Source of the DNA: Pirellulales bacterium
GTDB lineage: Bacteria; Planctomycetota; Planctomycetia; Pirellulales; Thermoguttaceae
NCBI GenBank assembly: GCA_030617125.1
Contig: JAUWWA010000014.1
Span: 1-11,641, forward strand
Length of the DNA stretch: 11,641 bases
Reading direction: 5' to 3'
Both the position numbers and the translations under genes were made by a program. Below the pieces are notes generated by a model, which was not told the origin of the DNA, did no database searches, and worked only from the letters and a program-made list of their open reading frames with translations. Positions 5,204-11,641 of this stretch are shown here, piece by piece. Numbering within the stretch: the first letter of the stretch is position 1; every line of letters begins with the position of its first letter.

Positions 5204-5272
5204 CATCGGGTCCACTAAGAATCGGACGGATGTGTTTGTTTCTCCTACAAGCCTCGCATGGAGGGTATCCCT

Positions 5273-5596
5273 ATGGCAAAAGCAGCCAAGAAACCGCCGA
5301 CCAAGACCGAGATCCTCAACAACATCGCCAACACGACGGACCTGACCAAGAAGGATGTGGCCGCCGTGTTCGACGCCTTGACAGCCGAGATCAAGAGGAA
5401 TCTCGGCCCCCGCGGCGCCGGCGCCTTTACCGTCCCCGGTCTGCTGAAGATCGAGAAGAAGAGGATTCCGGCCCGGCCAGCCAAGAAAGGCGTTCCCAAC
5501 CCGTTCAGACCCGGTGAACTGATGGACGTCGCTGCTCGACCGGCCTCAAACAAGGTTAAGGTCCGGCCACTGAAAAACCTCAAAGACATGGTCTGA
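5273..5596 (+). CDS. HU-family DNA-binding protein, planctomycete type
   Basis: This 107-residue basic protein has the HU/IHF fold pattern. An N-terminal helical pair (residues ~10-44, TKTEILNNIA...KDVAAVFDAL) is followed by the conserved β turn (FTVPGLLKI, ~52-60). The DNA-binding arm contains NPFRPGE at 76-82, matching the RNPxTG region of HU, with P77 in the place of the DNA-intercalating proline. The lysine/proline-rich start (MAKAAKKPPTKTE) and the C-terminal VRPLKNLKDMV resemble HU-like proteins I know from planctomycetes; the protein is longer than the usual ~90 residues. It likely dimerises and bends or compacts DNA in the nucleoid. I chose ATG 5273 because GGAGGG (5260-5265) lies 7 nt upstream; the in-frame ATG at 5258 overlaps that box and has no ribosome binding site of its own. 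The gene is probably monocistronic, since hairpins follow it. Confidence 0.93.
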   Translation: MAKAAKKPPTKTEILNNIANTTDLTKKDVAAVFDALTAEIKRNLGPRGAGAFTVPGLLKIEKKRIPARPAKKGVPNPFRPGELMDVAARPASNKVKVRPLKNLKDMV

Positions 5597-5805: not shown

Positions 5806-6006
5806 ATGAAACGGAAGCGTTACACGGACGAGCAGATAGCGTTTGCGGTGAGGCAGGCGGAACCGGGGACACCACTCGGCGGTACCCGTCGCCACCCGGC
5901 CAGCAACAATCCGGTACACGTGTTTCCGTGTGTTCCAAAGTGTCCCAGAAACCCGTCAACTCAGGCGCGAGAGCCAGGCCAAGTTCCTATCAGTCGGTCC
6001 GCGTGA
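5806..6006 (+). pseudogene. IS3-family transposase OrfA, 5' remnant
   Basis: The frame opens with MKRKRYTDEQIAFAVRQAE followed by PGTP, which closely matches the start of IS3-family OrfA proteins (MKR.R.T.EQI...LRQAE.GT). These carry the helix-turn-helix that binds the insertion-sequence ends. A strong ribosome binding site, AAAGGAGG, lies 10 nt upstream. After about residue 23 (near 5874) the resemblance stops: the helix-turn-helix core (normally CRKxGxSxxTFYRWK) and the leucine zipper are absent, and the frame runs through unrelated sequence to a stop at 6004-6006. No OrfB (DDE catalytic domain) follows. It is therefore a non-functional fragment of an insertion sequence, deleted after the start of orfA. 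The 66-residue frame could still be translated, but I see no sign that it matters. Confidence 0.75.
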
Positions 6007-6013
6007 ACTGGGA

Positions 6014-6042
6014 TTGACGTTAGGGATGGACAAACCTATACT
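6014..6042 (+). promoter_or_regulatory. Strong sigma70-like promoter upstream of the Cys-rich gene
   Basis: TTGACG (6014-6019) and TATACT (6037-6042) are separated by exactly 17 nt and each match the consensus at 5/6. The start site would be near 6049, about 24 nt before ATG 6073. The hexamer CCTATA occurs twice with 9-nt periodicity (6035-6040 and 6044-6049), overlapping the -10 box and start region, and could be part of an operator. This is the best promoter match I found in the intergenic regions. Confidence 0.6.
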
Positions 6043-6072: not shown

Positions 6073-6507
6073 ATGTTTCGCGTAGCGCATGCGCTCTTGA
6101 CGATTGCCGGGATGCTGGCCTGCCCGTTTGTTTGTATGGCCAAAGTCGGTCCCCACGCTGCGCTTGCGGAACAACGCGCCGAGTGCCCGTGCTGCCAGCA
6201 TCGTTGGCAGGCCCCCACCGGAGAGGGCCACTCCGGCGATAGTCCGGTCGAGCCCGAGCGTCGCAGTCCTGCACCTGCCGAGGATTGCGACTGCACCTGT
6301 CTGTGCAAAGGGGTCGTTCACCTAGAAGACACTCGCAAGCTCGGTCTCGGGGGACAAGCGGCTTTTGTTGTCTGGCTCGGCTTCACTTCTATCACAAAGG
6401 CGGATGCTGGCTCCCAATCGCTCCTTTCCTTTGCTGAAGCTCCGCCACCTTCCAAACTTGGCTCCGGCCGATTGATTCGTTTGGCTCTTGCCTCTCTCTT
6501 GCTTTGA
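6073..6507 (+). CDS. Small exported cysteine-rich protein, function unknown
   Basis: This 144-residue protein begins with a short hydrophobic export segment (residues ~2-23, MFRVAHALLTIAGMLACPFV). Two cysteine clusters follow: ECPCCQHRW at 37-45 and DCDCTCLCKG at 71-80, joined by a linker rich in Pro, Glu and Gly. Seven cysteines plus H43 in this arrangement suggest metal binding or disulfides outside the cytoplasm; this is inference. A hydrophobic patch (AFVVWLGF, ~97-104) and a hydrophobic C-terminus follow. I recognise similar CxCxCxCxG secreted proteins from planctomycetes, sometimes near metal-efflux genes, but know no named family. I chose ATG 6073; TTG 6067 is an in-frame alternative, and neither has a clear Shine-Dalgarno box. 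Third-position GC is visibly lower in the second half than in neighbouring genes. The protein lies just after a good promoter and 214 nt before permease 1. Confidence 0.65.
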   Translation: MFRVAHALLTIAGMLACPFVCMAKVGPHAALAEQRAECPCCQHRWQAPTGEGHSGDSPVEPERRSPAPAEDCDCTCLCKGVVHLEDTRKLGLGGQAAFVVWLGFTSITKADAGSQSLLSFAEAPPPSKLGSGRLIRLALASLLL

Positions 6508-6644
6508 TCCCCGCCAGCGATGCCCGGAAGGGTCACTCCAGCAGGTCGCGGACTGCGCGCCAGTCAGCGGCATCAGTTTCGCGTGCTCTGCGTGCATTGA
6601 ACCCCGGACATAAGAGGCGGGTGCGCCGTGCTCCCATCTCCGGG

Positions 6645-6683
6645 CCGAGCAAACGCCGCCCCAGGGCGGTTCGGTTTGCTCGG
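6645..6683 (+). promoter_or_regulatory. Long two-part stem-loop between the Cys-rich gene and permease 1
   Basis: CCGAGCAAAC (6645-6654) pairs perfectly with GTTTGCTCGG (6674-6683). Inside it CCGCC (6656-6660) pairs with GGCGG (6665-6669) around a CCAG loop. The internal loop is one G against TTCG. No T-run follows, so it is not a standard intrinsic terminator. It may be an attenuator, a processing or mRNA-stability element, or a cruciform binding site. It lies 38 nt before the GTG of permease 1. Confidence 0.6.
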
Positions 6684-6721
6684 ATCAACACGTAGGACCA
6701 TGAGGACTTCGAGGTAATCCC

Positions 6722-7891
6722 GTGTTTCGATTCCGTTTACTGCCTTGGGAATATGGCGTGCGCAACCTTCTCCGCAGGCCGATGCGGAGTTTTCTCACGA
6801 TGGGCGCTCTGACCGTCGTGGTGCTGCTGGTGTTTGTGATCGTCGGATTCATCCGGGGGTTGGAATCCTCGCTCACCGTAAGCGGCGACCCAGACGTAGT
6901 GCTCGTGCACTCGTTGGCGGCCGGAGGCAACCTTGAGAACTCGGCAATCCCCGCCCGAACGCCGGGGATCTTGTCGGCAAGTCTGGAGGGCATTCAACGC
7001 CGATTCGACGTATTGCACATCTCGCCCGAGTTGTACCAGGCTACCCACGTCCGCCAGGAACAAGACGGACACGCCTCGTTGGGGCTGGTCCGCGGCGTGT
7101 CCCGGGCCGCACCGTTGGTCCGCCGGCACGTCCGAATCGTCGAAGGCCGCTGGCCTGGTCCCGGCGAGGTGCTGGCCGGCCGGCTGGCGGCTGCAAAGCT
7201 CGGCTGGAAAGCCGACCGTCTCGCGGTCGGCAAAACGGTGATCTTTGAGGGGCGCGAGTGGCGCGTGAGCGGCCGATTCGTGGCAGGCAGTTCCGCGTTG
7301 GAATCAGAGCTGTGGTGCCCGTTGACCGACCTGCAGCAGGTCCTGAAACGCCAAGACCTGAGCTTGGTGGCCATGCTTCTGCGTTCCGGTGCTTCACCCT
7401 CCGAGGTTGAGTTGTTCTGCAAGGAGCGGGTGGACCTGGAACTGGCGGCAATTGCGGAGACCGATTACTACGCCGCATTACAGAAGCACTATCGTCCGGT
7501 GCGGATGCTCGCTTGGCTCGTTGTGATCCTGGTTGCAGGGGCGGGCGTGTTTGCGGCGATCAACACGATGTACGGCGCCGTGATGGGCCGCATTCGGGAA
7601 CTCGCGACCCTGCGAGCGATCGGCTTTCGTCGGCGGACTATCCTGCTGAGCCTCGTGCAGGAGGCGACGCTTCTGGCCGCGGCCGGCTGCTTGATTGCCG
7701 GGTTCCTGGCCATAACGCTCATCAACGGCCTGGCCGTGCGGTTTACCATGGGTGCATTCGCTCTGCGAATCGACAGCACGGCCGTGATGGTCGGCTGCGG
7801 CACCGGCCTGCTCATCGGCGCGGTGGGGGCGATCCCGCCCGCGGTCCGGGCCATGCGACTGTCCGTGTCCGAGAGTCTCAAAGCGGTTTAA
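6722..7891 (+). CDS. FtsX/MacB-type ABC transporter permease 1
   Basis: This 389-residue inner-membrane protein has the MacB/LolC/FtsX layout. There is one N-terminal transmembrane helix (~24-44), then a large periplasmic core domain (~48-255), then three C-terminal helices (~260-285, ~306-335, ~352-375). The segment after the second helix, [17 protein letters not shown] from ~289, is the conserved cytoplasmic coupling region of FtsX permeases. The C-terminus [17 protein letters not shown] is the typical family ending. Such permeases use ATP hydrolysis in the cytoplasm to drive movements of the periplasmic domain and move or extract substrates on the periplasmic side. The start is GTG, preceded by GAGGT (6711-6715) at 6 nt spacing. 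The gene is 49 nt upstream of the lipoprotein gene with no terminator between them. Its ATPase partner is most likely the gene at 10119. The substrate is not evident. Confidence 0.92.
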
Positions 7892-7940
7892 TTCACCCTA
7901 TTGTCACAACATACACCTGATACCTAAAGGAGTACATGAG

Positions 7941-8489
7941 ATGACACGTCACACGATGTTTCAAGGACTCACGCTGGCGGCGCTACTGCTGGCGGGCTGC
8001 GCGCAAAACAAAACGCCCACCGGCGATGCTTCAGCAGGTCGAGGCGCCAAACCGGCGGGAAGTGAGTTCCTGTTGGCGACCGAGCCGTCCGGCGCGATGG
8101 GAGTCGTCGAAGCCCGCGAAACGAGTCGAAACGACGACCAAGTGGTCCTGGTCGGCCGCATCGGCGGAGACACTGACCCGTTCGTGAAAGGCGCCGCCGC
8201 CTTCATGGTAGTGGACCTTTCGCTGGAGCCTTGCCCCGCAGACGAAGGTTGCCCAACGCCCTGGGACTATTGCTGCGATTTCAACAAGCTGTCCTCTCAC
8301 AAAGCAATGGTCAAAGTCGTCGATCAACAGGAACGAACGGTGAGACTCGACGCGCAGGAACTGCTGGGCGTCGAGGCACTTGCCACCGTGGTCGTGCGAG
8401 GCAAGGCCAAGCGCGATGAGGCCGGCAACCTGACGGTGCTGGCCGACGGCGTCTACGTCAAGCCATCGACCGGCCGAGGGCGCCAATGA
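7941..8489 (+). CDS. Lipoprotein with a conserved-looking Cys/TPWDYCC motif
   Basis: This 182-residue protein has a lipobox, L17-A18-G19-C20, after a short hydrophobic signal, so it should be lipid-anchored to an envelope membrane. A low-complexity linker (~21-50) leads into a compact β-rich domain (~60-178). VVLVGRIGG at ~68-76 and a late VVVRGKAKRDEAGNLTVLADGVYV segment suggest an OB-like barrel; the fold is inference. In the middle lies EPCPADEGCPTPWDYCC (96-112), with C98, C104, C111 and C112 as candidate metal or disulfide ligands. I recall similar CxTPWDxCC proteins in planctomycetes but know no assigned function. The ribosome binding site AAAGGAG (7926-7932) lies 8 nt before ATG. The stop overlaps the next start (ATGA at 8486-8489), so translation is likely coupled to the fusion protein, which suggests a role in the same export complex. 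Confidence 0.85.
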   Translation: MTRHTMFQGLTLAALLLAGCAQNKTPTGDASAGRGAKPAGSEFLLATEPSGAMGVVEARETSRNDDQVVLVGRIGGDTDPFVKGAAAFMVVDLSLEPCPADEGCPTPWDYCCDFNKLSSHKAMVKVVDQQERTVRLDAQELLGVEALATVVVRGKAKRDEAGNLTVLADGVYVKPSTGRGRQ

Positions 8490-10105
8490 GCACGACACCA
8501 GACCTCAAACAACTGATCATCGACCGCGGCGCACCGGCGCAGGTGCGGACCCCGCGCCGGCGACACCTGATCGCACGATACGTCATCCCCTCGGTGGTAT
8601 TGGCGGGGTTTGCCGCGATGCTCGGCTGGGCAGCCCGCGACCGGTTCCTCCCGGCCAAGCCGGTGACCGTGCTGCCGGTGGTCGTCACCCGGGCCGAAGT
8701 GCAGCAAAGCGGCGCTGCGCTGTTTCAAGCACCGGGTTGGATCGAGCCCCGGCCGACGCCGGTGCTCGTATCGGCGCTGGCCGAAGGAGTGATTGAGGAT
8801 CTGCTGGTCGTCGAGGGGCAGGAAGTCCGGGTGGGCGAGCCGGTGGCGCGGCTGATCGATGTAGACGCCCGCTTGGCCCTTGCCCAGGCCCAGGCCAGAT
8901 TGGCCCTGCGCCGCGCGGAACTAGCCAGTGCGCGGATCGAGCTAACCGCGGCTCGGCGACACCTGCAGTACCCGGTTCATCTGGAGGCAGCGGTGGCAGA
9001 GGCGGAATCGCTCTTGGCGCAAACGGAGACCGAACTGGCGCGGATTCCCCTGCTGGTTCAAGCCGCAGAGGCGCGGCTGGAATTTGCCCGCAAGAACCTT
9101 GAAGGGAAACAGGCGGCCGGTTCGTCCATCGCGGGACGGCTGATTCAGCAGGCCCAAAGCGAACATGACGGTGCTGTGGCTGAATTGGCGGAGCTTCGGG
9201 TCCGCCAGCCGCGCTTGCAGCGTAAAGCGGACGCCGTGCGGCGAAGGGAAGCTGCCCTCAGCAAACAACTCGATCTTCTGATTGATGAAACGCGCCGGGC
9301 GGCTGACGCAGAAGCGAAGTTACAGGCGGCCGAGGCGCGCGAGCGTCAGGCCTTGTTAGCAGTGGACGCTGCCCGGTTCCAACTGGACCGGATGGTGGTC
9401 CGCTCCCCGATCCATGGCCGCGTGCTGAGTCTGATCGCGCGGCCCGGCACGCGCTTGATGGGGCTCTCTTCCGCGTCAAACCAGGACTCCACGAACGTCG
9501 TCAGCCTCTACGACCCACAGATGCTCCAGGTCCGTGCCGACGTACGGCTGGAGGACGTTCTTCTGGTACAGTCGGGTCAGCCGGTGCGAATTGAGACGGC
9601 ATCCGCCGAAGGCACAATCGACGGCGAAGTGCTCTCGGCGACCTCGCGCGCAAACATCCAGAAAAACACACTGGAAGTGAAGGTGGCCATTAAGGACCCG
9701 CCCGCGACCATCCGGCCGGAGATGCTGGTGCAAGTCACGTTTCTCGCACCTGAAACCGAGGGCGACAGACCGGCAGAGGCGCAACACCGCGAGCGGCTGT
9801 TTGTCCCCCGGCAACTCGTCGATCAAACGCCGGAGGGGAACTTCGTCTGGCTGGCCGATGCGCGAGGGACCGCACGGCGGCAAAGCGTCGTGCTCGGGCA
9901 AGCCGGCACCGCAGAGCTTATCGAAGTCACGGAGGGCTTGAACGTGACCGACAAGCTCATTTCCGGCGGACGTGAAGGATTGCGCAACGGCGAGCGGATC
10001 AAGATCACGGGCGAGGACCCAACCATCGGAATGTCTGCAAGTCAAATCCGCCGGACAATTCCATCACACAAACGAATCACGGCACGAAGTGATCCAGTCG
10101 AATAG
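8486..10105 (+). CDS. HlyD/MacA-type periplasmic membrane fusion protein
   Basis: This 539-residue protein has a cytoplasmic N-terminus, one transmembrane helix (~31-50) and a periplasmic body. The first lipoyl half motif is at ~93-124 ([30 protein letters not shown]). A long Ala/Glu/Arg-rich coiled-coil hairpin spans ~125-300, and the second lipoyl half is at ~305-325 ([17 protein letters not shown]). β-barrel and membrane-proximal domains fill the rest, with [13 protein letters not shown] and [13 protein letters not shown] typical of the family. It would link the inner-membrane ABC permease to an outer-membrane partner; no TolC-like gene is in the window. The hairpin is longer than in E. 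coli MacA, which may reflect a wider periplasm or a different outer partner (inference). The start overlaps the lipoprotein stop by 4 nt, and 13 nt separate its stop from the ATPase gene. Confidence 0.93.
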
Positions 10106-10118
10106 CGAGGCACAAGGC

Positions 10119-10829
10119 ATGGCGATTGTAGAAATCCACGGGCTAACGAAGCAATTTCGCAAAGGGGATGAAACCATCACCCCGCTGGATGGGGTGGACC
10201 TCGATTTCGGGCACGGCGAATTCCTATCCCTGATGGGACCCAGCGGCAGCGGTAAGAGCACGCTGCTGAATCTCCTCGCTGGAATCGACCAACCCACTTC
10301 GGGCACGATTACCGTCGCTGGTACGGAGATCACACGCCTCTCGCGGAGCCGCCTGGCGGACTGGCGGGCGGCCCATCTGGGTTACATCTTCCAAACCCAC
10401 AATCTGATCCCCGTGCTGACGACATACGAAAACGTCGAGCTGCCTTTGCTGCTCCTTCCCATGTCGCGGACCGAGCGGGCCAAACGAGTCGGGATCGCAC
10501 TGGAAGCAGTGGGATTGACTGATCGGGCAGATCACTATCCTCGCCAGCTCTCCGGCGGACAGGAACAACGGGTGGGCATCGCCCGAGCCATTGTCGCCAA
10601 CCCGACTGTGATCGTTGCCGACGAGCCCACGGGAGACCTGGACGCCAAAACGAGCGAGCAAATCCAGGATTTGCTGCGGCGTCTGAACACCGAGTTGGGC
10701 ATGACCATATTGATGGTCACCCACGACTCCGACGTAGCGGCCATCGCCGCCCGTCAGCTTCGTCTGGTCGACGGCAAGCTCGTTGAGAGGCAGGATGTTG
10801 TGCAGAAACTGGACATAGTGAGGGCATGA
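10119..10829 (+). CDS. ABC transporter ATPase, LolD/MacB type
   Basis: This 236-residue cytoplasmic ATPase has all required motifs: Walker [10 protein letters not shown] (40-48, K46), a Q-loop in [10 protein letters not shown], signature [14 protein letters not shown] (144-157), Walker B VIVADEP (164-170, catalytic E169), the D-loop GDLD, and the switch H202 in MVTHD. Length and motif wording ([21 protein letters not shown]) place it with the LolD/MacB/FtsE group that pairs with FtsX-type permeases. It should power permease 1, permease 2, or a heterodimer of both. I chose ATG 10119 because it gives the normal N-terminus ([13 protein letters not shown]) and has GAGG at 10107-10110, 8 nt upstream. 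The open frame extends upstream into the fusion-protein gene, but that part is not needed. It ends 3 nt before the start of permease 2. Confidence 0.96.
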
Positions 10830-10832
10830 ACC

Positions 10833-11641
10833 ATGTTTCGTTTCGCCCCCTACATGCTCAAAGGACTTTGGCGGCACCAGGCGCGGACGGCCCTGACCGT
10901 CAGCGGATCGGCCGTCGCTTTGTTCGTTTTCTGTTTCGTGGGCGCCGTCCAGGAGGGGCTCCATGACCTGACGAGCTCGTACGACAACACACTCATCACG
11001 TTTCAGGAAAACCGTTTCTGTCCGACCACTAGCCGGCTGCCGGAAGTCTACGCCCGAACGATCGCCGCGATGGGTGGAGTGCAGGACGTGGTCCCAATCC
11101 AGGTGTTCACGAACAATTGCCGCGTCAGCCTTGATGTGATTGTGTTCAACGGGTTGCCTCCCGAAAAGTTGCGCTCAGCCCGCGAGATCAAAATCGTCTC
11201 GGGCAGTTGGTCCGAGTTTGAGCAGCGGCGCGATGCGGCCTTAGTCGGTACTCGCGTGGCCAGGCGCCGAAACCTCCGGGCCGGGCAGCAGTTTTCTCTG
11301 GGTGCGATTACGGTGAAGGTCGTCGGCGTGTTCGAGTCTTCCGTGGCGGCCGAAGAGAACCTGATTTACACACACCTTGAGTTCTTGCAGCGGGCTGGCG
11401 GCGTGGATAACGTCGGGCTGGTAACCGAGTTGGAAGTCCACCTGGCCGAAGATGCCGATGCCGACGCCGTGGCGGCAGCAATTGACGATAAGCTGCGCGC
11501 CGGGCCGGTGGCTACGGTGACCCGCCGCAAAGGGGCATTCCAAGCGAGCACGCTGGCAGACCTCATTGGACTGATCTCCTTTACCCACTGGCTCGGCTAT
11601 GCGTGCCTGGGGTTGGTGATGTCCCTGGTGGCGACCACGAC
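10833..11641 (+). CDS. FtsX/MacB-type ABC transporter permease 2 (partial at right edge)
   Basis: The frame is open for 269 codons from ATG 10833 to the window end, so the C-terminus is missing. It starts [35 protein letters not shown], with a transmembrane helix at ~20-41 as in FtsX permeases. A periplasmic core follows (~45-240) with the usual ending pattern [16 protein letters not shown] and [10 protein letters not shown] second helix begins near 247 ([24 protein letters not shown]). The coupling region and the last two helices lie outside the window. GAGGG (10820-10824) lies 8 nt upstream, inside the end of the ATPase gene. It differs clearly in sequence from permease 1, although both begin MFRF. 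The pair may form a heterodimer as LolC and LolE do (inference). Confidence 0.9.

Follow-up and report, generated by a model that had tools for sequence, protein, structure and literature searches.

A conserved gene set in Planctomycetota that may encode an ABC-powered heavy-metal efflux pump headed by a Cys-rich leader

A contig from a Pirellulales bacterium carries an operon that is probably an efflux pump, driven by ATP and spanning the cell envelope, for metals with an affinity for thiols, such as copper/silver, zinc or cadmium. Gene order across related loci makes it well supported that the five pump genes and the family of Cys-rich open reading frames (ORFs) preceding them form one conserved set, while the company that this set keeps suggests that its substrate would be a metal. 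The window that we analyzed is the whole of contig JAUWWA010000014.1 (11,641 nt; assembly GCA_030617125.1), and its relevant features are as follows.

6014..6042, plus strand: promoter-like TTGACG-17-TATACT preceding the Cys-rich ORF (consensus scan)
6073..6507, plus strand: Cys-rich, exported-looking ORF, the proposed metal-sensing leader (family profile, tail, Cys-to-tail spacing)
6645..6683, plus strand: hairpin CCGAGCAAAC..GTTTGCTCGG within the leader-permease 1 spacer (read in the sequence; within a predicted fold)
6722..7891, plus strand: permease 1, MacB_PCD + FtsX (Pfam above cut-off)
7941..8489, plus strand: lipoprotein with a predicted OB fold and a C-x5-C-x-TPWDYCC site (lipobox LAGC, conserved Cys, AlphaFold2 model, folds)
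8486..10105, plus strand: periplasmic adaptor of the HlyD/CusB/MacA type (Pfam and TIGR01730 above cut-off; model)
10119..10829, plus strand: ABC ATPase of the LolD/MacB/FtsE type (PF00005)
10833..11641, plus strand: permease 2, MacB_PCD, incomplete at the contig end (Pfam above cut-off)

The gaps between the pump genes, from permease 1 to permease 2, are 49, −4, 13 and 3 bp, confirming the first-pass annotation's description of five close plus-strand genes behind a Cys-rich ORF. Permease 2 is truncated by the end of the contig. A good promoter had also been proposed before the Cys-rich gene; the consensus scan did return one promoter-like site between 5600 and 6800, compared with 0.2 in shuffled sequences, though such a match is not evidence of function. 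Searches of the window for tRNAs and Rfam families were empty. A phage origin was rejected: viral contigs gave 67 pattern matches, and not one of these encodes a relative.

The expectation that the members would co-occur in the same order was confirmed. From at least 271 related loci we took the 80 most like the window's in their lipoprotein, and at 67 of these permease 1, lipoprotein, adaptor, ATPase and permease 2 follow one another; the remaining loci comprise 12 cut by contig ends and one exception. Locus L059 has no permease 1 between its leader and lipoprotein. A second order, adaptor-ATPase-permease 2-permease 1-lipoprotein, was found in other planctomycete classes at 70 of 84 loci selected for adjacent permease 1 and lipoprotein genes, several of the other 14 being cut by contig ends. 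In 114 of 128 places the lipoprotein gene directly follows permease 1, as it does in all 28 above 150 bits. The lipoprotein is usual and not universal, because 30 of 141 permease-1 places (taken from at least 150; the last nine listed were left out) have no detected neighboring lipoprotein. In a sister phylum, the five-gene unit occurs in nine of 12 places examined. Three initial genome scans scored at most 9, 4 and 10 candidates per genome, and counts resulting from them are therefore lower bounds. An outer-membrane efflux protein (OEP) gene occupies position −2 on the same strand at only 12 of the 80 loci, and other OEP matches nearby may be parts of neighboring RND operons. As far as sequence goes, the 67 loci support the proposal that a Lol-like two-permease plan is here combined with a MacA-like bridge and has a lipoprotein of its own.

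By their MacB_PCD/FtsX domains, both permeases are assigned to the MacB/FtsX (type VII) ABC superfamily. Permease 1 matches PF12704 (MacB_PCD) at 60.7 bits and PF02687 (FtsX) at 33.6 bits; permease 2, incomplete at the contig end, matches PF12704 at 58.1 bits, and its full-length relatives have about 380 residues. The two are indeed unlike, with 24% identity in a profile-profile alignment. The ATPase matches PF00005 (ABC_tran) at 123.7 bits, and the adaptor matches HlyD_D23/HlyD_3 and TIGR01730, its model having an N-terminal membrane helix and a long hairpin. An ATPase belonging to each permease would speak against a single complex. At 66 loci all five genes passed a stricter score, 44 of these loci having 3 kb on both sides, and at none of the 66 do the 3 kb that follow permease 2 contain a second ABC ATPase on the same strand. 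Other ABC ATPases occur nearby at L037 (about 2.5 kb upstream, same strand) and at L015 (downstream, opposite strand).

The Cys-rich ORF has no Pfam match at E ≤ 0.01 but is recognized by its family profile at E = 3.6e-19, although it lay outside the seed. The family is present at 70 of the 80 loci, establishing the upstream Cys-rich gene as a member of the set. Its products have a median of 14 Cys, and the N-terminus of the window's ORF is hydrophobic, judged by reading the sequence only. In 69 of 71 members, 49-54 residues separate the last Cys motif, C.[GASC], from the Gly of the tail, and the tail, GRxxRxxxxSxL[ILCV]-like in the window's family, is fixed relative to the stop codon: Gly falls at −13 in 65 and Ser at −4 in 57 of 71, against a shuffle maximum of 19 that was computed without regard to relatedness. 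Neither Pro-Pro in the last 15 residues nor a RAPP tail is present in the window's leader, and no leader of the window's class matched DUF2946 (0/48 at E ≤ 1). In other planctomycete classes, an ad hoc filter, which passed at least one spurious-looking ORF (L166), found leader-like ORFs at 44 of 65 loci, two such ORFs lying on the opposite strand; a looser filter was discarded for its many spurious ORFs. These ORFs are concentrated in front of the operons (46 in 164 kb upstream versus nine in 1.59 Mb of strand elsewhere), and Pro-Pro occurs within the last 40 residues at 42 of the 44 loci, compared with 51 of 408 other matched proteins of the same loci, 30 of those 51 being permease 1. One of eight other-class leaders matched DUF2946, below the cut-off (E = 0.46). 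By analogy with CutF and CruR, the Cys-rich ORF would be a metal-sensing leader that controls expression of the pump.

A conserved RNA stem-loop between the leader and permease 1 was looked for and was not supported. The mean unpaired probability near the permease 1 start (0.444, 52 loci) does not mark it as clearly more buried than the starts of the adaptor (0.493, 77), the ATPase (0.510, 71) or permease 2 (0.453, 69). The window's hairpin, for which relatives showed no counterpart, sits upstream of the permease 1 start, in a spacer region that is not unusually stable (z = −0.72). The 6-mer CTGCGC recurs in 19 of 54 spacers versus 5.8 expected, a weak motif given that 200 shuffles yielded counts of up to 17 for one 6-mer or another.

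The same leader family also heads metal operons of another kind. Across 59 genomes we found 36 Cys-rich ORFs, 18 before permease 1, at least 12 before heavy-metal RND pumps and six before neither, the RND count being a lower bound drawn from 150 of 206 RND places. In the 12 RND cases the pump (TIGR00914) lies 1.8-3.0 kb downstream of the ORF on the same strand, and six such pumps scored 1168-1247 bits against a cut-off of 701. Flanking the 80 loci, with family assignments verified on one representative per family, are CusA/CzcA-type RND genes (11 loci), CzcB-type adaptors (11) and metal P-type ATPases (8), and at five loci a secreted-looking HMA protein lies between the leader and permease 1. 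The 11 loci with RND genes compare with about 0.7 expected under uniform gene placement, again computed without regard to relatedness; where sampling was less selective, only two of 20 permease 1 places lay within 10 kb of one of the RND pumps listed. Among the eight window proteins scanned with Pfam there is no RND family. Seven neighboring P-type ATPases fall into two kinds, with CPCALVISTP in three and CPCAMGLAVP/CPCALGLATP in four; neighbors this mixed do not indicate a single metal, and assignment to one metal was rejected. The first-pass annotation had guessed at a metal, thiol or lipid, and of these the context favors metal.

The lipoprotein carries the lipobox LAGC and the conserved Cys site, has no Pfam match at E ≤ 0.01 and is confidently predicted to adopt an OB fold; its best sequence relative in the PDB reached an E of only 0.23, and families missing from the fold lists were not counted as evidence. 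Among those listed, PWDYCC is present in 18 of 19 operon-linked lipoproteins of other classes, and a CPFC-type site replaces it in five of seven unlinked ones. Since the unlinked lipoproteins L135 and L136 retain PWDYCC/PWDFCC, the Cys site is not strictly tied to the operon, and L135, with PWDYCC, adjoins an RND-type gene. We found no mention of the TPWDYCC motif in the literature searched, which included few subscription papers.

The constancy with which this lipoprotein accompanies permease 1 could also be read as that of cargo with its exporter. In an Aat/Lol-like system, the LolCE-like permeases would extract the co-encoded lipoprotein from the inner membrane, and adaptor and channel would deliver it to the cell surface, possibly to bind metal there. 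The LolD-like ATPase with two permeases and the adjacency in 114 of 128 places fit such a role, for which Aat, with Lol-like parts, an adaptor and a TolC-type channel, offers a precedent (PMC7943197). We nevertheless consider it unlikely, given the 30 permease-1 places where no lipoprotein was detected, the lipoprotein copies away from the pump, one of them beside an RND-type gene, and the leader held in common with RND metal pumps. Alternatively, the pump might carry an envelope lipid, a thiol or a metal-chelating small molecule, metal genes adjoining it because metal stress harms the envelope. Relatives of the MacB/Lol/Dev type carry lipids, lipoproteins, glycolipids, peptides or drugs (reviewed for the MacB family in PMC5985334), but the Cys/His-type site of the lipoprotein and the leader shared with metal-type RND operons make this quite improbable. 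Least plausible is that the Cys-rich product is itself a secreted metal-chelating peptide, exported as MacAB exports small periplasmic peptides: it is Cys-rich, looks exported and adjoins the pump at 70 of 80 loci, and secretion of heat-stable enterotoxin by MacAB-TolC is reported (PMC7943197), yet the stop-fixed tail and fixed Cys-to-tail spacing better suit a leader. Moreover, the family precedes RND pumps in at least 12 of 36 places. RND pumps are not known to export peptides.

A metal efflux pump thus remains our preferred reading, and its parts suggest how it might work. Permeases 1 and 2 would pair up as in LolCE, the heterodimer being seated on a dimer of the ATPase, this core would act by MacB-type mechanotransmission, and the adaptor would connect it to an OEP/TolC-type channel. 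In the periplasm, the OB-fold lipoprotein may take up metal at its Cys site and pass it to the pump, much as CusF hands metal to CusCBA. The leader could sense metal during its own export: metal binding at the Cys motif, some 50 residues before the tail, would alter translation at the leader's C-terminal end and so change expression of the pump genes, in either direction. No transporter of the MacB/LolCE type is known for which metal transport has been proven, and the trans-envelope metal pumps known so far are proton-driven RND systems. The operon could perhaps represent a new class of heavy-metal exporter, tentatively defined by ABC power, a heterodimeric MacB/LolCE-type core, an OB-fold metallolipoprotein and a stop-anchored, non-proline metal-sensing leader, widespread in Planctomycetota and also present in Verrucomicrobiota. 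We found no paper describing this system by title or abstract start, in a search that included few subscription papers, nor any linking CutF-like or arrest-peptide leaders with an ABC transporter in Planctomycetota.

Among known systems, MacAB-TolC resembles the set in its adaptor, TolC-type channel, MacB_PCD/FtsX permease fold and periplasmic substrate uptake. MacB, as described in a review, is a fused ATPase and permease acting as a homodimer (PMC5985334), whereas in the window the ATPase has a gene to itself and the permeases are two distinct proteins, with the lipoprotein and leader in addition. Scores stay below the MacAB equivalog cut-offs (MacA 22.7 versus 342; MacB 16.0 for permease 1 and 211.4 for the ATPase versus 966). 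DevBCA, like the window, encodes its adaptor, FtsX-type permease and ATPase in genes of their own, but has a single permease type where the window has two, and Dev scores are also below cut-off (DevA 198.6 versus 295.8, DevB 46.9 versus 129, DevC 25.1 versus 290.35). LolCDE shares the plan of two different permeases with one separate ATPase, seen here at 67 of 80 loci, but is treated as adaptor-independent in the same review (PMC5985334), unlike the window's set, which includes an adaptor; the Lol scores again fall short (LolCE 27.3 and 18.8 versus 362.45, permease 2 being incomplete; LolD 233.5 versus 307.75). Aat (AatPABCD) does join Lol-like ABC parts to an adaptor and a TolC-type channel (PMC7943197), and differs in its one permease gene, its acyltransferase AatD and its acylated-protein cargo. 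CusCFBA and CzcCBA have an adaptor, a channel, a small periplasmic metal protein and a small Cys/His ORF in front (CzcI, CutF-like), with an RND permease where the window has an ABC core. For the leader, the precedents are the copper-sensing CutF (PMC9973294) and the copper leader CruR, in which 45 residues, constant to one or two, lie between the Cys motif and the C-terminal motif (PMC9426467); the two regulate in opposite directions. Like them, the window's family is an exported-looking Cys-motif ORF heading a putative metal operon, with constant Cys-to-C-terminal-motif spacing and a sizeable spacer to the next gene. Unlike them, it has neither RAPP/PP tails nor a DUF2946 match, the leader-like ORFs of other classes being mostly Pro-Pro, and because the published CutF survey required Pro-Pro, it would have missed this non-proline family.

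The genes of the proposed envelope export system all lie where the first-pass annotation had placed them:

6073-6507, + strand, Cys-rich ORF
6722-7891, + strand, permease 1, MacB/FtsX group
7941-8489, + strand, lipoprotein
8486-10105, + strand, adaptor, HlyD/CusB-type
10119-10829, + strand, ABC ATPase, LolD/MacB-type
from 10833, + strand, permease 2, MacB/FtsX group, gene cut by the contig end

From permease 1 to permease 2, the intergenic distances are 49, -4, 13 and 3 bp. Against the LolCDE, MacAB and DevBCA models, the window's permeases, adaptor and ATPase all scored below cut-off; for the broad RND_mfp model the adaptor exceeded it (106.9 vs 94.9 bits). Solved relatives of the permeases are MacB-type, LolC/LolE and YtrF chains, the permease 1 match being weak. 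The lipoprotein has a predicted OB fold with a conserved C-x5-C-x-TPWDYCC site. The adaptor model (33 sequences; mean pLDDT 84.5, pTM 0.56) has a helix near its N-terminus (27-54), and its hairpin has two long helices per arm (126-161 and 164-210; 217-264 and 266-301), and the nearest solved sequences include MexJ, ZneB (CzcB-like) and MacA. No gene for a TolC-type outer-membrane channel (OEP) was found within the window, which is one complete contig of an incomplete host genome (2.42 Mb in 459 contigs, completeness 68%). A short stretch, MKRKRYTDEQIAFAVRQAE (~5806-5890, + strand), is an apparent remnant that we take to be similar to an IS3-type transposase start. The window also holds an HU-like DNA-binding protein (5258-5596, + strand, PF00216) and a 1560-residue frame that matches PQQ/BamB-like propellers and TPRs and extends past the contig end (3-4682, - strand).

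We collected lipoprotein relatives with up to 10 kb per side and took the best 80 of at least 271 loci. Co-occurrence of the members, the check that the first-pass annotation had proposed, was borne out, with all five genes from permease 1 to permease 2 in window order at 67 of the 80. Twelve of the other 13 loci are cut by a contig end. The one exception, L059, carries the Cys-rich ORF (a proposed leader, hereafter the leader), lipoprotein, adaptor, ATPase and permease 2 at 9215-14017 without permease 1; this could be a genuine one-permease variant or reflect a gap in the assembly. Across the phylum, the lipoprotein occurs in at least 116 of 392 genomes and permease 1 in at least 166 (E<=1e-40). 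Permease 1 lies immediately upstream of the lipoprotein in 114 of 128 places (median gap 63 bp) and in all 28 lipoprotein places above 150 bits; among the matches listed, 30 of 141 permease-1 places have no adjoining lipoprotein. In other classes, 70 of 84 loci, selected by permease 1-lipoprotein adjacency, have the order adaptor-ATPase-permease 2-permease 1-lipoprotein, and this recurrence of the same members in altered order is good evidence of joint function. A locus from the window's own family, L119, has the window order followed by an OEP gene. A further locus, L048, comes from Limisphaerales, an order of Verrucomicrobiota. In that phylum the lipoprotein was found in 19 of 145 genomes, and at nine of 12 places (taken of 20 listed) it is accompanied by adaptor, ATPase and both permeases, except that no permease 2 was called at L213.

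Three loci of other lineages (L137-L139) carry adaptor, ATPase, permease 2 and permease 1, the lipoprotein being absent. Unlinked lipoprotein relatives (L129-L132, L134) have a CPFC-type site in place of TPWDYCC, and at L135 (5931-11793, - strand) a TPWDYCC lipoprotein lies ~0.5 kb downstream of a same-strand RND-type gene, apart from the ABC operon.

A single complex would be doubtful if each permease had its own ATPase. Where all five genes passed a stricter score (66 loci, 44 of them with 3 kb on both sides), no second same-strand ABC ATPase was found within 3 kb downstream; at L037 a same-strand one lies ~2.5 kb upstream, and at L015 another is on the opposite strand. Given the conserved unit and this ATPase neighbourhood, neither outcome named in advance as counting against one complex, scattered members or separate ATPases, was seen. 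We regard the original finding as real and its interpretation, a LolCDE-like two-permease plan with a MacA-like bridge and a lipoprotein, as largely right.

A leader profile (seed, 37 upstream ORFs) detected the window ORF, which lay outside the seed (E=3.6e-19), and matched 70 of the 80 loci. Of the ten loci without a match, seven are contig-end cut; by eye, L025 and L048 have a different Cys-rich ORF at that place, and none was seen upstream at L070. Within 59 genomes of the class the leader occurs 36 times: 18 immediately before permease 1, at least 12 followed by a same-strand heavy-metal RND pump at a distance of 1.8-3.0 kb (RND places listed), and six with neither permease 1 nor a listed RND pump downstream. 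Among nine fetched loci where it is away from permease 1, seven have the order leader, adaptor, RND; L120 instead has an HMA protein, and L122 a different ABC set. Six RND pumps behind leaders scored 1168-1247 bits against a cut-off of 701. It is mainly this sharing between the ABC operon and heavy-metal RND operons that suggests a metal substrate.

The flanks of the 80 loci, with family assignments checked on one representative each, contain OEP in 25 (same strand at position -2 in 12), CusA/CzcA-type RND in 11, CzcB-type adaptor in 11 and metal P-type ATPase in eight; a secreted-looking HMA-domain protein sits between leader and permease 1 (position -1) in five (L017, L024, L058, L060, L080). 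Uniform placement would predict ~0.7 loci with flanking RND rather than 11, but a less selected sample gave only 2 of 20 permease-1 places with a listed RND inside 10 kb. In four related loci (L042, L043, L057, L066) position -2, upstream of the leader, is taken by a protein resembling multihaem cytochrome c (family checked with Pfam on L057).

Mean column identity in the leader family is 22% overall. Anchored to the stop codon (n=71), its tail has Gly -13 in 65, Arg -12 in 54, Arg -9 in 49 and Ser -4 in 57, against a maximum of 19 on shuffling the last 40 residues, and a C.[GASC] motif begins 49-54 residues ahead of Gly -13 in 69 of 71. Among 65 loci of other classes with 1 kb or more of upstream sequence, 44 carry a same-strand Cys-rich exported-looking ORF no further than 2.6 kb upstream, and two such ORFs are on the opposite strand; the density is 46 in 164 kb upstream vs 9 over 1.59 Mb of strand outside these regions. 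Pro-Pro falls within the last 40 residues at 42 of these 44 loci, compared with 51 of 408 other matched proteins of the same loci, 30 of the 51 being permease 1; C-terminal ends include RPPIA (L107, L119) and QPPIA (L108). The stop-anchored tail, the fixed Cys-to-tail spacing, these Pro-Pro ORFs and the published CutF and CruR parallels together argue for a regulatory leader. Leader-permease 1 spacers contain CTGCGC in 19 of 54 (5.8 expected), a signal that is weak across all 6-mers.

Taking as template the MacB model (PMC5985334), we propose that the periplasmic domains of permeases 1 and 2 would close once ATP binds, and that this closure would drive the substrate, probably a thiophilic metal handed over by the lipoprotein, through adaptor and channel. 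The leader may bind metal during its own export and so adjust pump synthesis. What the comparisons establish is the conserved unit, the protein families, the lipoprotein's predicted fold and Cys site, and a leader family shared with metal RND operons; a single complex, its substrate, the transport direction and the regulation are inferred.

According to PMC9973294, CutF of Rhodobacter capsulatus is a copper sensor that during export affects translation of the next gene via a stem-loop. CruR of Bordetella pertussis (PMC9426467) has CXXC 45 residues before RAPP, a spacing that holds within one or two residues, and its spacer is 162 bp long; that paper also notes a few planctomycete homologues. 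Arrest of CruR in vitro is covered in PMC12992588, and arrest peptides of this kind, in general, in PMC10987492. Copper acts in opposite directions, CutO rising with CutF (PMC9973294) and the downstream gene falling with CruR (PMC9426467). Unlike these proteins, the window's leader has no Pro-Pro in its tail and its family no DUF2946 match (0 of 48 class members; one sub-threshold match among eight other-class leader ORFs); with no clear sign of RNA structure shielding the permease 1 start, this counts against full membership. The CutF survey (PMC9973294) required Pro-Pro in the last 15 residues, and so the window's leader family would fall outside it. The likeness includes a Cys motif at near-constant distance from a C-terminal motif. 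We found no description of the combination in the literature searched, and the system joins known kinds: a MacB/Lol-type ABC set, a tripartite pump and a CutF-type leader.
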